Shown in pieces: positions 13,346 to 27,180 of a stretch of 28,546 nt of DNA. The notes beneath the pieces were generated by a model, which saw nothing but the letters and a program-made list of their open reading frames with translations, was not told the DNA's origin and did no database searches. This stretch comes from a virus, in the IMG/VR virus record IMGVR_UViG_3300046010_009191, positions 1 through 28,546 of that record, one strand, 5' to 3'. The first letter of the stretch is position 1, and the number at the start of each line of letters is the position of its first letter. Both the position numbers and the translations under genes were made by a program.

Positions 13346-13446
13346 CAAAATTAAGTGCGCAGAAATCATTGGCAATTGAAAGGAATGACCAAAAGACCGC
13401 CCGTTTAATCCAGGCGGTCATTGATAGAATCAATCTTGAAAAGTGA
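13261..13446 (+). CDS. Small basic protein overlapping the phosphoesterase, unknown
   Basis: The ATG at 13261 (GGGGTG upstream) opens a 61-codon ORF overlapping the last 85 bases of the phosphoesterase gene in another frame, then continuing about 100 bases beyond it. The product is very basic and helical, with a short repeat: residues near 8 and near 23 both read DTKADS. Its end overlaps the convergent exonuclease gene by 17 bases, and the terminator of that operon lies within it. It may be a nucleic-acid-binding protein. Alternatively it may not be expressed, and the convergent region may simply be open by chance. Confidence 0.45.
   Translation: MDRRKRDTKADSNAGKREKRVDTKADSLTKLSAQKSLAIERNDQKTARLIQAVIDRINLEK
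13391..13419 (-). terminator. Rho-independent terminator for the leftward operon
   Basis: GACCGCC (13395-13401) and GGCGGTC (13413-13419) form a perfect 7-bp GC-rich stem with an 11-base loop. Read on the minus strand, the stem is followed by TTTT. It lies just past the stop codon of the minus-strand exonuclease, as expected for its terminator. The plus-strand side has no T-tract. The U-tract is short, so efficiency is uncertain. Confidence 0.65.
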
Positions 13447-14332
13447 TTTTCTTCTGAGTGGATGCTTTACCCACTTTTAAATAAGTTTCAGGAATGACAA
13501 GTTTCTCATCTTGCAAAAACTTGGCATAGTCCCAAGACTCACGGCCCTTTACTGAAATCTTTTGAATCTTGGCACCGTTACAAATTACGCTTGTGTGCTT
13601 GATCTTTTTAAAGATTTCTTCTTTCAATTTATCAAGGGTGGCACTAATACCATCAAGATCAGTTTCAAGCATTTTGTAGCGAGTAATCATATCAGAAAGC
13701 TCAGTATCATCAGATTGATCGAACAAGTCTTTTTTGCTCAATCCAGGCTTTTCTTTGGATTCCACGCAAGCCCAAAAATTTCTCAATGCTGGTAATAGTT
13801 CGTCACGGATATATGGAATGTCCGGCAAAACATCAACAGAAGCATAAGAAAGACCTTTTTCATCATCTTCGCGCATTACCGCAAGGATACATTTCTTGGC
13901 ACCTGTCAAAAGTAACTGCTGCTGAATCTGGGGGTAGTATTGCTCAATTGGCTGGCCAGCTTTTACTTGGTTGTAAAAATCAATTCCAACATATTTAGCT
14001 TCCAATACAGCATCAAGCTCTTTGCAGTAACCATCAAGAGAAGCCATTAAAAATGGATACTCTTCGCTAAGAACAACGATTGCCGGAAAGTCATATCCGG
14101 TATCAATCTCAAGAGCGGCGCGGATTTTCTCCTCCATTTTATGGCCCTTGGCCTGAATGAAGTTAGGCTCAGAATTACCTTCTTTTGGCTCGCCAATTTT
14201 TTGCTCCCACAATTGTAATGGAGTGGAAAACTTTGACTTACCCATAATAATGTTGGCCTCAGATGCACCCAAGCGCGTATTGCGTAGCTTGTGCCATTCT
14301 TCAGTGTTTTGGATCATATCAATTGTTTTCAT
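13430..14332 (-). CDS. YqaJ-type (lambda exonuclease family) viral recombinase nuclease
   Basis: A 300-residue protein. The YqaJ signatures are visible in order: EEWHKLRNTRLGASEAN at residues 11-27, GHKMEE (E67), ASLDGY (D100), then the metal-binding E111-A-K113, and YYPQIQQQLLLTGA near 148. These give the PD-(D/E)XK core (E67, D100, E111, K113). Such 5'-3' exonucleases resect double-stranded DNA to prepare ends for single-strand annealing. The C-terminal ~100 residues are helical and may bind the partner recombinase. AGGA lies eight bases before the ATG, and the gene starts two bases after the stop of the preceding minus-strand gene. A Sak4-like ATPase and SSB are encoded on the other strand and probably act with it. 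Confidence 0.9.
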   Translation of the reverse strand: MKTIDMIQNTEEWHKLRNTRLGASEANIIMGKSKFSTPLQLWEQKIGEPKEGNSEPNFIQAKGHKMEEKIRAALEIDTGYDFPAIVVLSEEYPFLMASLDGYCKELDAVLEAKYVGIDFYNQVKAGQPIEQYYPQIQQQLLLTGAKKCILAVMREDDEKGLSYASVDVLPDIPYIRDELLPALRNFWACVESKEKPGLSKKDLFDQSDDTELSDMITRYKMLETDLDGISATLDKLKEEIFKKIKHTSVICNGAKIQKISVKGRESWDYAKFLQDEKLVIPETYLKVGKASTQKKITFQD

Positions 14333-14334
14333 CT

Positions 14335-14649
14335 TTATATTCCTAGTGTGTTTTGAATTTTTAAAAGTGCATCAGATTGTTTTGTTGAAAGTCTCTTTCC
14401 TGAATAAACGTGGCGTTTCAAGGACTCAAGAAACTCAATGTCCCATCCCTTCGCTCTCGCGCAGTCTAAGCACTTAACAACTAAATCTCTTTCACTCATT
14501 GATTCTTTTTGCTTTTCTTCAATACCAGTTTTTGGAGCCTGGTATTCATTACCAAGCTCCATTTTTTTAATGCCATTGGATTCAAGTAACCGCTCCAAAA
14601 TATCCAAATGACCACGAATAATTTGAATTTGCGGATAAATTGAGTTCAT
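14335..14649 (-). CDS. Small protein in recombination operon, unknown
   Basis: A 104-residue protein on the minus strand, coupled by an ATGA overlap to the 57-residue gene before it and ending two bases before the exonuclease start. It has a helical N-terminus (IIRGHLDILERLLES), a polar linker, and a C-terminal domain with CLDCARAKGWD and FLESLKRHVYSGKRLSTKQ. The latter resembles the FL.SL......G..LS.KQ...L..I pattern I know from the ends of various phage replication and recombination proteins. It may be a small partner or adaptor of the exonuclease. No enzyme motif is visible. Confidence 0.7.
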   Translation of the reverse strand: MNSIYPQIQIIRGHLDILERLLESNGIKKMELGNEYQAPKTGIEEKQKESMSERDLVVKCLDCARAKGWDIEFLESLKRHVYSGKRLSTKQSDALLKIQNTLGI

Positions 14650-14819
14650 TTCTTCACGTTCAATTCGGCCAGAGCTTGATAATCAGACTCTTTAGGGAAA
14701 GAACGATTAAGTTCTTTTATCAAACGATCATACTGCTCAGGGTCGCGTTCCTTCAGGCGAACCTTTTGAACTGGTGTTAAACGGTTAAACTCCAAAACTG
14801 TGTACGTTTTTTGTGCCAT
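14646..14819 (-). CDS. 57-residue protein heading the leftward operon, unknown
   Basis: This ORF is short but well supported. The ATG (complement of 14817-14819) has GGAGA about six bases upstream on the minus strand, and its TGA overlaps the ATG of the next minus-strand gene (ATGA). The product is charged and helical: MAQKTYTVLEFNRLTPVQKV at the start, then a KERDPEQYDRLIKELN helix. There is no membrane segment or known motif. It is the first gene transcribed leftward from the divergent control region, so it is probably an early phage protein. Confidence 0.72.
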   Translation of the reverse strand: MAQKTYTVLEFNRLTPVQKVRLKERDPEQYDRLIKELNRSFPKESDYQALAELNVKK

Positions 14820-14840
14820 AAAATATCTCCTTTTTTGGCG

Positions 14841-14882
14841 TTGACAAACTTTGTACCAAAAAAATACATTACTTGTACCAAG
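14841..14882 (+). promoter_or_regulatory. Divergent early control region: promoter with twin operators
   Basis: TTGACA at 14841-14846 is a perfect -35 box; TACATT at 14865-14870, 18 bases on, is a fair -10. Two near-identical sites overlap it: TTTGTACCAAA (14850-14860) and CTTGTACCAAG (14872-14882). Both are TTG-TAC-CAA cores with palindromic outer arms, and their centres are 22 bases, two helical turns, apart. The first covers the spacer and the second the start region, so a dimeric repressor bound here would block rightward transcription. The Cro-like gene at 14911 is the likely regulator. The leftward promoter must lie in the same 90 bases but is not clear. Confidence 0.7.
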
Positions 14883-14910
14883 TTTTGCAACTGATTAAAT
14901 AAGGAGGATT

Positions 14911-15099
14911 ATGAAGAGTCAGCAGAAAGCCCTTTTATCGCAGCTAAAAACTGCAATCAAGATAAAGGGTCTTGCGTGGGTAACTAATGAACTAGGTTAT
15001 CGCTCAGGAAACACAATTATGTTTTGGTTCAAAAATGGAAAAATTCCTGACAGAACAGTTCCGTCAGTAATTGCTTTAACAGATAAAGGAGTAAAGTAA
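14911..15099 (+). CDS. Cro-like small helix-turn-helix regulator
   Basis: A 62-residue protein, the first gene of the rightward operon, with AAGGAGG four bases before ATG. The middle reads GLAWVTNELGYRSGNTIMFW then FKNGKIP, which fits a helix-turn-helix of the Cro/CI type: a first helix AWVTNELG, a turn at YRSG, a recognition helix NTIMFWFKNG and the KIP end. It lies immediately downstream of the twin operators and would be expected to bind them. There is no repressor gene next to it in this window, so the switch may be simpler than lambda's or may use a distant repressor. Function is inferred from motif and position. Confidence 0.7.
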   Translation: MKSQQKALLSQLKTAIKIKGLAWVTNELGYRSGNTIMFWFKNGKIPDRTVPSVIALTDKGVK

Positions 15100-16068
15100 A
15101 TGAGTATCTTATCCCAGGCCATTACAGGAAGAAAAATCAAACCACTTGCCATTCTAGTTTATGGCGTTCATGGCATTGGTAAAACAACACTTCCAAGCGA
15201 AGCGGCAAATCCGATCTATGTTGGTTCAGAAGAAAATGACGAGATTGATTCTGCAAGACTTCCAAAAGTTGTGAAGTGGAGTCAATTCATAGACCAGCTA
15301 AAAGCTTTGCGTGACGAAAATCACACATATAAGACACTGGTTATCGACACAATGGATTCACTTGAACAAGTTGCACAGGCAGAAATTCTTTCTGGCAAAG
15401 AAGCTAATAAGTCTATGGCCACAGCAATGGGCGGCTACGGCAAGGCTTACGAGAAAATGGCAGAAATGTTTTTGGACGTAAGAGATAATTTTCTGGCCCC
15501 ATTGCGTGATGCCAAAGGAATGAACATTGTCATTCTTGCACACGCTGAGAAGTCAAAGCATGAAGACCCTATGACGCTCACAAGCTATGACACTTTTTCG
15601 ACCTCGTTACATAAAAAGGTAAAACCGATTTTCCAGGATTGGGTTAGCGCAATTCTATTCATCAACTACTGGAGAGCCAAAACTTCATTGAATGATGGCC
15701 GTGAAGTTGCTTTGGGTGATGGCTCAAGAATGATTTATACAGAGGAGCGACCAAGCCACGTTGCCAAAAATCGCTTTGAGCTTCCTTATGAAATTGAATT
15801 TGAGAAGTCAGGAACATGGGCGAAACTTGTCAAGCACATCAAGGATCACTATGCCCAGGCACCACAGCCAGAGAAAAAAGAAGAAGCCCCAGAGATTGAA
15901 ACAAATGCAAACGCTGAAGCAATCCAGGTAATGAAGGCTATTGATGAGCTTTTTGCCAAGGTTCCAGATGAGCAAAAGGATCGCATTGCCACATCAATCA
16001 AAAGAGCTGGAAAAGAACTAAGTGAACTAAACCGCATTTATAAAAAAATGCAAACTTTGACCAAATAG
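15100..16068 (+). CDS. Sak4-like RecA-fold ATPase (AAA_24), recombination
   Basis: A 322-residue protein. Walker A is at residues 22-30 (GVHGIGKTT) and Walker B at TLVIDTMDSLE with D83. The YVGSEENDEIDSARLP segment between them and the HAEKSKHEDP region fit the phage AAA_24/Sak4 group, ATPases of the RecA-fold that promote single-strand annealing. The C-terminal ~60 residues are Pro/Glu-rich, then helical. The gene starts directly after the Cro-like stop. An SSB-like gene follows 10 bases later, the usual partner of Sak4 proteins. A role in recombination or replication repair is likely. Confidence 0.82.
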   Translation: MSILSQAITGRKIKPLAILVYGVHGIGKTTLPSEAANPIYVGSEENDEIDSARLPKVVKWSQFIDQLKALRDENHTYKTLVIDTMDSLEQVAQAEILSGKEANKSMATAMGGYGKAYEKMAEMFLDVRDNFLAPLRDAKGMNIVILAHAEKSKHEDPMTLTSYDTFSTSLHKKVKPIFQDWVSAILFINYWRAKTSLNDGREVALGDGSRMIYTEERPSHVAKNRFELPYEIEFEKSGTWAKLVKHIKDHYAQAPQPEKKEEAPEIETNANAEAIQVMKAIDELFAKVPDEQKDRIATSIKRAGKELSELNRIYKKMQTLTK

Positions 16069-19458: not shown

Positions 19459-19504
19459 CTTAGTTGGTGCAAAATTTGTATAAATTATAAAAGGAGAAAA
19501 TTTT

Positions 19505-19951
19505 ATGAAAGATAAAATCAAAGAAGCTTGTAAGACATGGAAGGCGCATAATCTTAGTGGCGACCAAAGTATTTTAATCCATGACCTATGTGAAAGAGCA
19601 TGGCAAGCCTGCGCAGAATGGATGCTGAGTCAGGTACACGAAAAATTTGAGGACTATGAAAAAGAATATTGGGACACAGACTTATTATGCGGAAAAACCA
19701 GCAGAGAGTGGACTGACCAAAATCATGTTGAAATGGCTACATCGTATCAACGTCGAGCATGGGACGCAGCTCGCCTTTCAAGTGCCAAAGAGATTATGGA
19801 GAAAGATGAAAGAATTAAAAAATTAGAATCCCTTATTCTTTTGACTGACTATTCTGTGAAAGACCAGCAAATGAACGATGTCGCAATAGTTCAATGGCAA
19901 TCCTATTTGCTAGATTTCCCAGAACTCGCCAGCAAGAAGGAATCAACATGA
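19505..19951 (+). CDS. Unknown protein, W/E-rich helical
   Basis: A 148-residue protein with a strong AAAAGGAG site before ATG. TATAAA-like boxes and a TTGGTG at 19464-19491 could form a weak promoter. The product is helical with several Trp/Cys residues in the N-terminal half (CKTWKAHN, CERAWQACAEW) and a coiled-coil-like KEIMEKDERIKKLESL region. I do not recognise it. It opens a run of small genes, five of which overlap at stop/start codons. Confidence 0.68.
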   Translation: MKDKIKEACKTWKAHNLSGDQSILIHDLCERAWQACAEWMLSQVHEKFEDYEKEYWDTDLLCGKTSREWTDQNHVEMATSYQRRAWDAARLSSAKEIMEKDERIKKLESLILLTDYSVKDQQMNDVAIVQWQSYLLDFPELASKKEST

Positions 19952-24102: not shown

Positions 24103-24309
24103 ATGATTACCAATCCAATTGTTTACTCAAAATTGTGCAAACTGGCAGACGATGAAAATGTCTCAGTTTCATATATTATTAACAAACTTGTGTTTGATGA
24201 ACTCAAAAGAAAAGGGCTTATTGATGATGATTTTGAGCCAAAAAAGAAACCCAAAACGGGTAAAAAAAGTCATTACTCAATAGCAAAAGAACATTGGAAA
24301 AGGGCTTAA
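24103..24309 (+). CDS. Small basic protein, possibly ribbon-helix-helix
   Basis: A 68-residue protein starting one base after the primase-helicase stop, with CGGAGG before the ATG. Residues 6-37 (VYSKLCKLADDENVSVSYIINKL...) fit the two helices of a ribbon-helix-helix fold, although a clear N-terminal strand is missing. The C-terminal half is very basic (PKKKPKTGKKSH), suggesting nucleic acid binding. It ends inside the stem of a terminator, closing the operon. DNA binding near the repeat region would make sense but is inferred. Confidence 0.62.
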   Translation: MITNPIVYSKLCKLADDENVSVSYIINKLVFDELKRKGLIDDDFEPKKKPKTGKKSHYSIAKEHWKRA

Positions 24310-25631: not shown

Positions 25632-27180
25632 CTATGATGCTTTTATGGAAGCACTTATTCATCGGTGTGCTACGGATATTCAGCTATTCGCTATCACTTT
25701 TTTTCCGCATTATTGCCGACACGCTTTCAATCGCTTTCATCGAGATACGTTTGCTCAGTACAAATTTGGCGAGAGAGCTATTCGTCGGGCTTCAGCCGCA
25801 CCTCGCGGATACGCCAAGAGTACGAATAAAGTTCTTATTAAGCCGATCCATGACGTTTGCTACCGATTGGAGAAGTTCATTGTCATCATATCTAACACCG
25901 ACGCTCAGGCAGTACAAAAAGTCAAAGACATACAATCCGAGTTCATTGGCAATGATGATCTTATTTCTGCTTTCGGTAACTTTATACCAAGCAGAAAAAT
26001 TGGTTCGACAGATTTTGTTGCTCACAATGCAGATCATCCATGCCGTATTCTTGCGCTTGGCTCTGGTACGGAAATGCGAGGAATCCGGTTTGGTGACGTT
26101 CGACCAACGAAAATCATTCTGGATGATATTGAACACTCTGAAGAAGTTGAAAGTGAAATGCTCAGAGAAAAGCAGCTCAATTGGTACAATGATGTTATTT
26201 CCAAAATCGGTGATGAACAAACAAACATTGAGCTGGTTGGCACTGTTCTTCACCGCGAATCATTGCTGGTAAAGCTAATCAACAATCCCAGGTATCAATC
26301 CGCAGAATATCGAGCAATCGAATCATGGTCACAACGAAAAGACCTATGGGACAAATGGAAAGGCATTTATTGTAACCTGGATGATGGTGACAGGATCATA
26401 AATGCCAAAGCATATTTCATGCAAAATGAAGCTGAAATGCTAAAAGGCACAGAAGTTTTATGGCCAGAAAAAGAGCCTTATTATGCTCTCCAGGAAGAAA
26501 TCATCGAAACTGGTATCCGGTCATTTATGAAGGAAAAACAAAACTCTCCAATGAGTGATGAGGAAAAGGTTTTCGCCCCTGAAAATATTTGGTGGTATCA
26601 AGAGCAAGAAAAGGGATTGTTCATTGAAAAAACTAACACGCTTATCCCTTGGAATATGCTCACGGCATACGGGACGATTGACCCTTCTACTGGCCAGCGA
26701 AAAGTCACATCAAATAAGAAGCCTGACTTCACATCAATCTTATCGGGTTATGCAGATCAGAGGAATCGGCTATTTGTTCATGAAGCTTATCTTAAGCGGG
26801 TTGCGCCTAGTGTTTTCATCAGGGAAATATTCGACTTACACGCTCGGCTTAATTACTTTAAGTTTGGGGTGGAAACAAACTTATTCCGCGAATTACTACT
26901 GGATAACATTCTCAAAGAAAGAAAAAGAATTGAGCAAGAGCTTAAGAAAATGATCCAGATTAAGTTTTATGAAATCTATCTGACTGAGAACAAGGAAAAA
27001 CGGATATACTCAATTGAGCCCAAAGTGGCACATGGACTAATCCTGTTCAACAGAAACTTATCCCAGGAGTTCATGAACCAGCTTTATGACTTTCCAAAGG
27101 GTACGCATGATGACGGGCCAGATTCCCTTGAAATGCTATGGGGATTGGTCAACAATAAGTACAAGGTGGGAGCATTATGA
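25546..27180 (+). CDS. Terminase large subunit
   Basis: About 544 residues from the ATG at 25546; GTG at 25537 and ATG at 25558 are alternatives. The ATPase has a variant Walker A, APRGYAKST (K91 by this start), and Walker B ILDDIE with D193-D194. The nuclease domain shows YGTIDPS near residue 377, and a final HDDGPDSLE segment supplies the typical acidic pair. It pumps and cuts phage DNA. The N-terminal LRNLPQEEFSRLL pattern is common in this family, so translation truly begins within the small-subunit gene, giving an overlap of about 86 bases in different frames. GGTGG lies about six bases before the ATG. Confidence 0.93.
   Translation: MNLKMELVESLRNLPQEEFSRLLQNLQNDYDAFMEALIHRCATDIQLFAITFFPHYCRHAFNRFHRDTFAQYKFGERAIRRASAAPRGYAKSTNKVLIKPIHDVCYRLEKFIVIISNTDAQAVQKVKDIQSEFIGNDDLISAFGNFIPSRKIGSTDFVAHNADHPCRILALGSGTEMRGIRFGDVRPTKIILDDIEHSEEVESEMLREKQLNWYNDVISKIGDEQTNIELVGTVLHRESLLVKLINNPRYQSAEYRAIESWSQRKDLWDKWKGIYCNLDDGDRIINAKAYFMQNEAEMLKGTEVLWPEKEPYYALQEEIIETGIRSFMKEKQNSPMSDEEKVFAPENIWWYQEQEKGLFIEKTNTLIPWNMLTAYGTIDPSTGQRKVTSNKKPDFTSILSGYADQRNRLFVHEAYLKRVAPSVFIREIFDLHARLNYFKFGVETNLFRELLLDNILKERKRIEQELKKMIQIKFYEIYLTENKEKRIYSIEPKVAHGLILFNRNLSQEFMNQLYDFPKGTHDDGPDSLEMLWGLVNNKYKVGAL

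Follow-up and report, generated by a model that had tools for sequence, protein, structure and literature searches.

Twin candidate operators at a Cro-like gene between divergent exonuclease and Sak4 recombinase genes of a viral genome

The window, by which we mean the whole 28,546-bp stretch of viral DNA analysed here, carries two recombination operons that point away from a 91-bp gap at positions 14820-14910. Rightward, the first gene (14911..15099, plus strand) has the Shine-Dalgarno sequence AAGGAGG at 14901-14907 and encodes a 62-residue protein, which we call mini-Cro and propose to be an autorepressor. A gene for a Sak4-like recombinase (15100..16068, plus strand; phrog_124, E 4e-47; AAA_24, E 3e-39) begins with its ATG directly after the mini-Cro stop codon. 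Leftward, the gap is followed by a gene for 57 residues (14646..14819, minus strand; Shine-Dalgarno AAGGAGA at 14826-14832), to which small genes in the leftward operons of two related loci, L007 and L009, look similar by eye; by a gene for 104 residues (14335..14649, minus strand) with no clear Pfam or PHROG family; and by a YqaJ/RecE-like exonuclease gene (13430..14332, minus strand; PF09588, E 8.7e-21; phrog_434, E 1.5e-43). A preliminary description of the window had placed a divergent exonuclease operon opposite the small gene, and the YqaJ match bears this out. The RNA folding of both leaders is unremarkable (z -0.98 and -1.35).

Relatives of mini-Cro were reached through Sak4 and exonuclease alignments; a direct search with the window's 62-residue protein returned none in viral_contigs or phage records, and the exonuclease protein alone as query also found no relatives. 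A profile built from seven members gathers 16 distinct members at E <= 1.7e-7, namely the window, L004, L007 (to which L008 is nearly identical), L009, L010, L011, L012, L092, L180, L148, L139, L097, L127, L093, L104 and L095. Sak4 lies directly downstream on the same strand in all 16 loci, overlapping mini-Cro by a few bases in L007, L009 and L010, and a divergent leftward YqaJ exonuclease is present in 15, none being seen in L180. The window has all three parts of this module: a mini-Cro that matches the profile, Sak4 next to it on the same strand, and a divergent YqaJ exonuclease. The converse survey started from 155 distinct Sak4 loci, from which 33 with less than 1.5 kb upstream were set aside (two of them with mini-Cro and exonuclease). 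Among the 122 with at least 1.5 kb upstream, mini-Cro is found in 14, and 13 of these 14 have the divergent exonuclease, against one of the remaining 108, in counts that are biased toward the association by the collection of Sak4 loci partly through exonuclease similarity. The single exception is Bdellovibrio phage phi1422, in which the slot between divergent exonuclease and Sak4 is occupied by gp11 (L005:5784-5993), an XRE-type helix-turn-helix (HTH) protein of another subfamily (HTH_3, E 0.00028, just under Pfam's cut-off) that is annotated merely as a hypothetical protein. Searching bacterial and archaeal genomes for Sak4 relatives gave none in either of two scans, so that a prophage copy is not known.

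The window mini-Cro alone matches no Pfam or PHROG family, and its classification draws on the family. An alignment with the 15 relatives yielded a four-helix model with a mean pLDDT of 90 and helices at residues 2-19, 21-28, 34-42 and 50-60. The best solved match of the family profile is the Cro protein of the Xylella prophage Xfaso 1 (3bd1, E 0.0042), itself an all-alpha Cro, which also ranks second in VIA-align (Z 6.5, rmsd 2.8, 53 aligned residues). The VIA-align matches are mostly XRE/Cro proteins with Z values of 4-6.7, all below 8, the tool's caution level. When the 16 members were tested against Pfam, five matched YdaS_toxin, three HTH_17 and one Cro, all weakly, and three of the 16 matched the transcriptional repressor family phrog_35 (best E 0.00014). 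Model, VIA-align and profile thus agree on a single small HTH domain of Cro/XRE fold in the window protein, and the Cro-like character first ascribed to the gene has held up. Foldseek against the PDB gave no match below E 1 for the model, and we therefore regard the fold class as likely and the family assignment as not firm. Unlike mini-Cro, 3bd1 comes from a putative prophage, and the two are 19% identical; the scores would not sustain a definite assignment to its family.

The preliminary description had also noted that no larger repressor lies next to mini-Cro, and no CI- or LexA-type repressor was found in the window or in the 15 related records. Profiles for tyrosine integrase (PF00589), serine recombinase (PF00239), S24/LexA peptidase (PF00717) and HTH_3 (PF01381) each matched in none of the 16 records at E 0.001, in searches whose positive controls matched in 10-14 of 14 genomes; the records range from fragments of 5-16 kb, of which there are several, up to 40-52 kb, and PF01381 misses the mini-Cro genes too. 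Neither a second CI-type repressor nor an integration function, which together would mark a lambda-type bistable switch, was found in the 16 records. The window does encode a possible second phage regulator, a 68-residue protein at 24103-24309 (plus strand) with a weak Arc-like match (phrog_3180, E 0.0027), so that the circuit may involve more than mini-Cro.

The predicted promoters of both operons fall within the 91-bp gap. The rightward early promoter (14841..14870, plus strand) consists of a -35 box TTGACA at 14841-14846, an 18-bp spacer and a -10 box TACATT at 14865-14870, with a predicted start near 14877. It has 10 of 12 consensus matches, the top score in 14000-15800 in a consensus scan, whose matches are predictions that need not hold in the host. 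The candidate leftward promoter (14861..14890, minus strand) has a -35 box TTGCAA at 14890-14885, an 18-bp spacer and a -10 box TATTTT at 14866-14861, with a predicted start near 14854; it is weak at 8 of 12 matches and falls below the cut-off of the main promoter scan. Of the other minus-strand matches, three lie inside Sak4 (15680, 15515 and 15275) and one (14847) ends at the start codon of the 57-residue gene. The two predicted starts are 23 bp apart, and the opposed -10 boxes share 2 bp. We considered a wholly mirrored promoter here. An imperfect inverted repeat (14840..14891) has 20-bp arms at 14840-14859 and 14872-14891 with 15 of 20 pairs, which 14 of 500 shuffles reach; the score of the best ungapped inverted repeat of the gap is attained in a fraction of 0.208 of 1,000 shuffles, which is not significant; and a pair of opposed TTGACA boxes within one mismatch is absent from the gap. 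Because these symmetry statistics are weak, a mirrored promoter in the window is at most something that we infer.

The same gap contains the twin sites. The 9-mer TTGTACCAA occurs in it as two exact copies, at 14851-14859 and 14873-14881, centred at 14855 and 14877 and therefore 22 bp apart, as originally claimed. The first copy belongs to the candidate operator O1 (TTTGTACCAAA, 14850..14860, plus strand), a TTTG-TAC-CAAA dyad with 4-bp arms; the second belongs to the candidate operator O2 (CTTGTACCAAG, 14872..14882, plus strand), whose ACTTG-TAC-CAAGT dyad has 5-bp arms and makes up the 13-bp sequence ACTTGTACCAAGT. O1 falls in the rightward -35/-10 spacer and on the predicted leftward start point, and O2 on the predicted rightward start at 14877; the earlier placement of one site in the spacer and one near the start point of a TTGACA promoter agrees with this. 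We judge it highly improbable that this promoter gap, being AT-rich, repeats the 9-mer by chance. The pair was chosen by eye out of 28.5 kb, some 9-mer repeat is present in 83 of 2,846 overlapping 91-bp tiles of the window, and, in shuffle tests that were all framed post hoc with the sites already seen, a repeat of at least 9 arises in 21 of 2,000 shuffles of the gap under a relaxed rule (at least 2 G/C) and an exact 9-mer repeat containing three or more G/C in 68 of 20,000 dinucleotide shuffles. The latter frequency, however, drops to 4 of 20,000 once at least three of the four dyad pairs are also required, and chance would have to explain as well why one copy sits in the spacer and the other on the start point, and why two related gaps have comparable twins. 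A search for more copies elsewhere in the record had been suggested as a check: one further exact TTGTACCAA exists, at 26181 on the minus strand within the terminase gene, and the 11 one-mismatch copies are at chance level (8.3 expected). The search for an additional operator yielded only one such one-mismatch copy, at 19464-19472; it reads TTGCACCAA on the minus strand and lies in a short gap (19459-19504) ahead of a gene at 19505, where it overlaps what may be a weak promoter with TATAAA at its end, and it too is at chance level.

The site is not conserved as a sequence, since TTGTACCAA is absent, within one mismatch, from all 13 relatives' gaps tested. The preliminary description had counted absence of the sites from related phages with the gene against the operators, and formally such absence is what we found. 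It does not refute the operator reading, because the relatives' mini-Cro proteins, at only 21-35% identity to that of the window, have other recognition helices, and because different twins are present in two of the relatives. In L139, the 16-bp ACAAATTAATCATTAA occurs twice, 33 bp apart, the first copy running from the -35 box into the spacer and the second lying at the start point; in L093, the 12-bp CTGTTATAACGG occurs twice in tandem, 12 bp apart, over the promoter core. Neither arrangement was matched in 2,000 shuffles; the promoter was positioned by the promoter scan in L139 and by eye in L093. Significant direct twin repeats are confined to three of the 16 gaps. Two pairs of relatives suggest that the site sequence follows the recognition helix. 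L148 and L139 share ETNAINNWI in the recognition-helix region, and TTAATCA elements are carried by inverted arms in the L148 gap, which are perfect over 20 bp (TGATTAATTTTGTGTTGACA and its mirror), enclose a 22-bp loop, contain both -35 boxes and were not equalled in 1,000 shuffles. L093 and L095 have SSTAI and RGR in common near the recognition helix, GTTAT/ATAAC dyads are present in both gaps, and the L095 gap has 10-bp inverted arms (3 of 1,000 shuffles). As these pairs are few and related, the match between helix and site is a lead rather than a test. A significant inverted repeat in the L004 gap was discounted as an operator, as it extends into the Shine-Dalgarno regions. For the gaps of L009, L010, L097, L104 and L180, none of the three tests (inverted repeats, opposed boxes, direct repeats) was significant, nor were the latter two for that of L127.

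The same comparison bears on whether some other protein binds the twin sites, be it a host regulator, the Arc-like phage protein at 24103-24309 or a repressor unseen elsewhere in the genome. The Arc-like match itself, a 28.5-kb record that may be incomplete, and site sequences that are not conserved along with the mini-Cro gene would all allow for this. A Cro-fold gene nevertheless adjoins the gap in 16 of 16 members, and different twin repeats stand beside mini-Cro genes with other recognition helices; we consider a different binder quite improbable.

Half of the gaps point to two opposed promoters lying over one another. Opposed TTGACA/TGTCAA boxes, 22-29 bp apart and with at most one mismatch in all, are present in seven of 14 gaps (L004, L007, L011, L012, L092, L148 and L139). 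Among control tiles, they occur in two of 1,448 hundred-base tiles from other parts of these loci and in 12 of 3,178 AT-rich tiles taken across all loci. The 14-gap tests left out L127 and L093, whose gene starts are unclear; both were later checked for opposed boxes, which they lack, and for direct repeats. In each of the seven gaps, two promoters would occupy the same stretch on opposite strands, their predicted starts separated by 31-37 bp. The seven do not count as independent cases, as several of these relatives are akin: the proteins of L004, L007 and L092 are 51-62% identical, and those of L148 and L139 49%. The window is not among the seven, and its own leftward promoter, weak at 8 of 12 and outside the opposed-box signature, would suit a simpler arrangement in which the rightward promoter alone is controlled, mini-Cro being a plain autorepressor of the Sak4 operon and the exonuclease operon being transcribed from an unregulated or different promoter. 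The consensus scan, however, found no stronger leftward promoter in 14820-14910, and within a 91-bp gap O1 and O2 would overlap most leftward starts. Control of the rightward promoter alone is, in our view, rather unlikely.

The reading that we prefer, and think probable, is that mini-Cro is an autorepressor of the Cro type without a CI partner, that O1 and O2 are its operators on its own promoter, and that it throttles both recombination operons as a brake or timer. Host RNA polymerase would fire the promoter region early in infection, one rightward transcript yielding mini-Cro and Sak4 and the opposite strand of the same stretch yielding the exonuclease operon transcript. As mini-Cro accumulates, its dimers would occupy O1 and O2 next to each other on the same helix face, the 22 bp between the centres being about two turns, and so close the rightward promoter. 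At the leftward start near 14854, O1 would cover the start and O2 the spacer; because each site covers the spacer or start of the opposed promoter, the exonuclease operon would also be turned down. Sak4 begins directly after the mini-Cro stop codon, and its supply would therefore track the mini-Cro feedback closely. We infer binding, dimerisation and repression by mini-Cro, together with the start points and the early timing; the step on which this model is probably weakest is the leftward promoter in the window itself. The preliminary description had envisaged a minimal one-protein switch. The Cro-like protein, the twin dyads and the lack of a CI- or LexA-type repressor agree with it, whereas the notion of a switch fares less well: without a repressor or an integrase, a switch would have no second state to go to, and a negative-feedback brake fits better; the Arc-like candidate is also present. 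A lysis-lysogeny switch is thus unlikely, and a feedback brake more likely.

The proposed arrangement recalls phage lambda, in which the first gene of an early operon encodes Cro, a small HTH protein of one domain that binds repeated dyads about two turns apart over its own promoter and acts on pR and pL. Mini-Cro resembles it in size, domain, gene position and twin dyads, and a rightward and a leftward effect is proposed for it; the turning down of pR and pL would be compressed into one 52-bp site. Unlike lambda, the mini-Cro locus lacks an adjoining CI gene and prophage promoter, a single shared site stands in place of two separated operator regions, and the leftward genes are directly recombination genes. 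Warman et al. 2026 (PMC12825309) describe bidirectional promoters as two opposite-strand promoters that are not occupied simultaneously, have their symmetry in the -10 element and most often start 18 bp apart, 10 and 23 bp also being common. The 23 bp between the predicted starts of the window is therefore a common distance there, whereas the seven opposed-box relatives mirror their -35 boxes, have predicted starts 31-37 bp apart and adjoin a dedicated phage regulator. The Cro of the telomere phage PY54 (PMC4488713) has a simplified operator set with a single 16-bp site and is said to repress cI, not itself; mini-Cro would likewise have a simplified set, but its candidate sites lie over the promoter of its own gene, and a cI is lacking. 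SaPI2 Stl2 is reported (PMC11846896) to be a large satellite repressor that binds a Sak4-type recombinase of a phage. Mini-Cro shares the link between a repressor and a Sak4-type recombinase, and differs in having 62 residues and in being co-encoded with Sak4.

A bolder generalization, which we hold to be unlikely, is that a class of phages without integrase or CI sets the ratio of end-resecting exonuclease to Sak4 by one protein of about 53-80 residues on a mirror-symmetric promoter that polymerase uses in one direction at a time. In its boldest form, the co-encoded Sak4 would titrate mini-Cro off its operators, much as the SaPI2 Stl repressor is titrated by phage recombinases, and recombination demand would then feed back on supply. 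Cro-type repression itself is already known; what would be new here is a Cro without CI at a recombination promoter, a compact and testable case in which one small protein and one promoter-operator apparently govern both recombination arms. Searches of open-access PMC for Cro-like autorepressors in virulent phages and for Bdellovibrio phage Cro, judged by titles and abstract openings, turned up no description of the mini-Cro module. Its 16 members, with differing recognition helices and, in some, different promoter repeats, offer natural material for a Cro recognition code. They would also serve to ask how overlapping opposed promoters are regulated, of which nothing was known according to the abstract of Warman et al. 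2026 (PMC12825309).

Two smaller observations concern the sites themselves. A third TTGACA lies just ahead of the mini-Cro start codon in two relatives (L007:2702-2707 and bases 84-89 of the L092 gap), too near the codon for an ordinary mini-Cro promoter, and is perhaps part of an operator in this subgroup. In a GC-rich phage contig with an unrelated gene context (L246:278-430), CTTGGTACAAAG, approximately the same dyad as the window sites, occurs as four exact copies in two pairs (278, 292, 396 and 419); one pair was picked by the pattern search, and the other two copies lie outside that selection.
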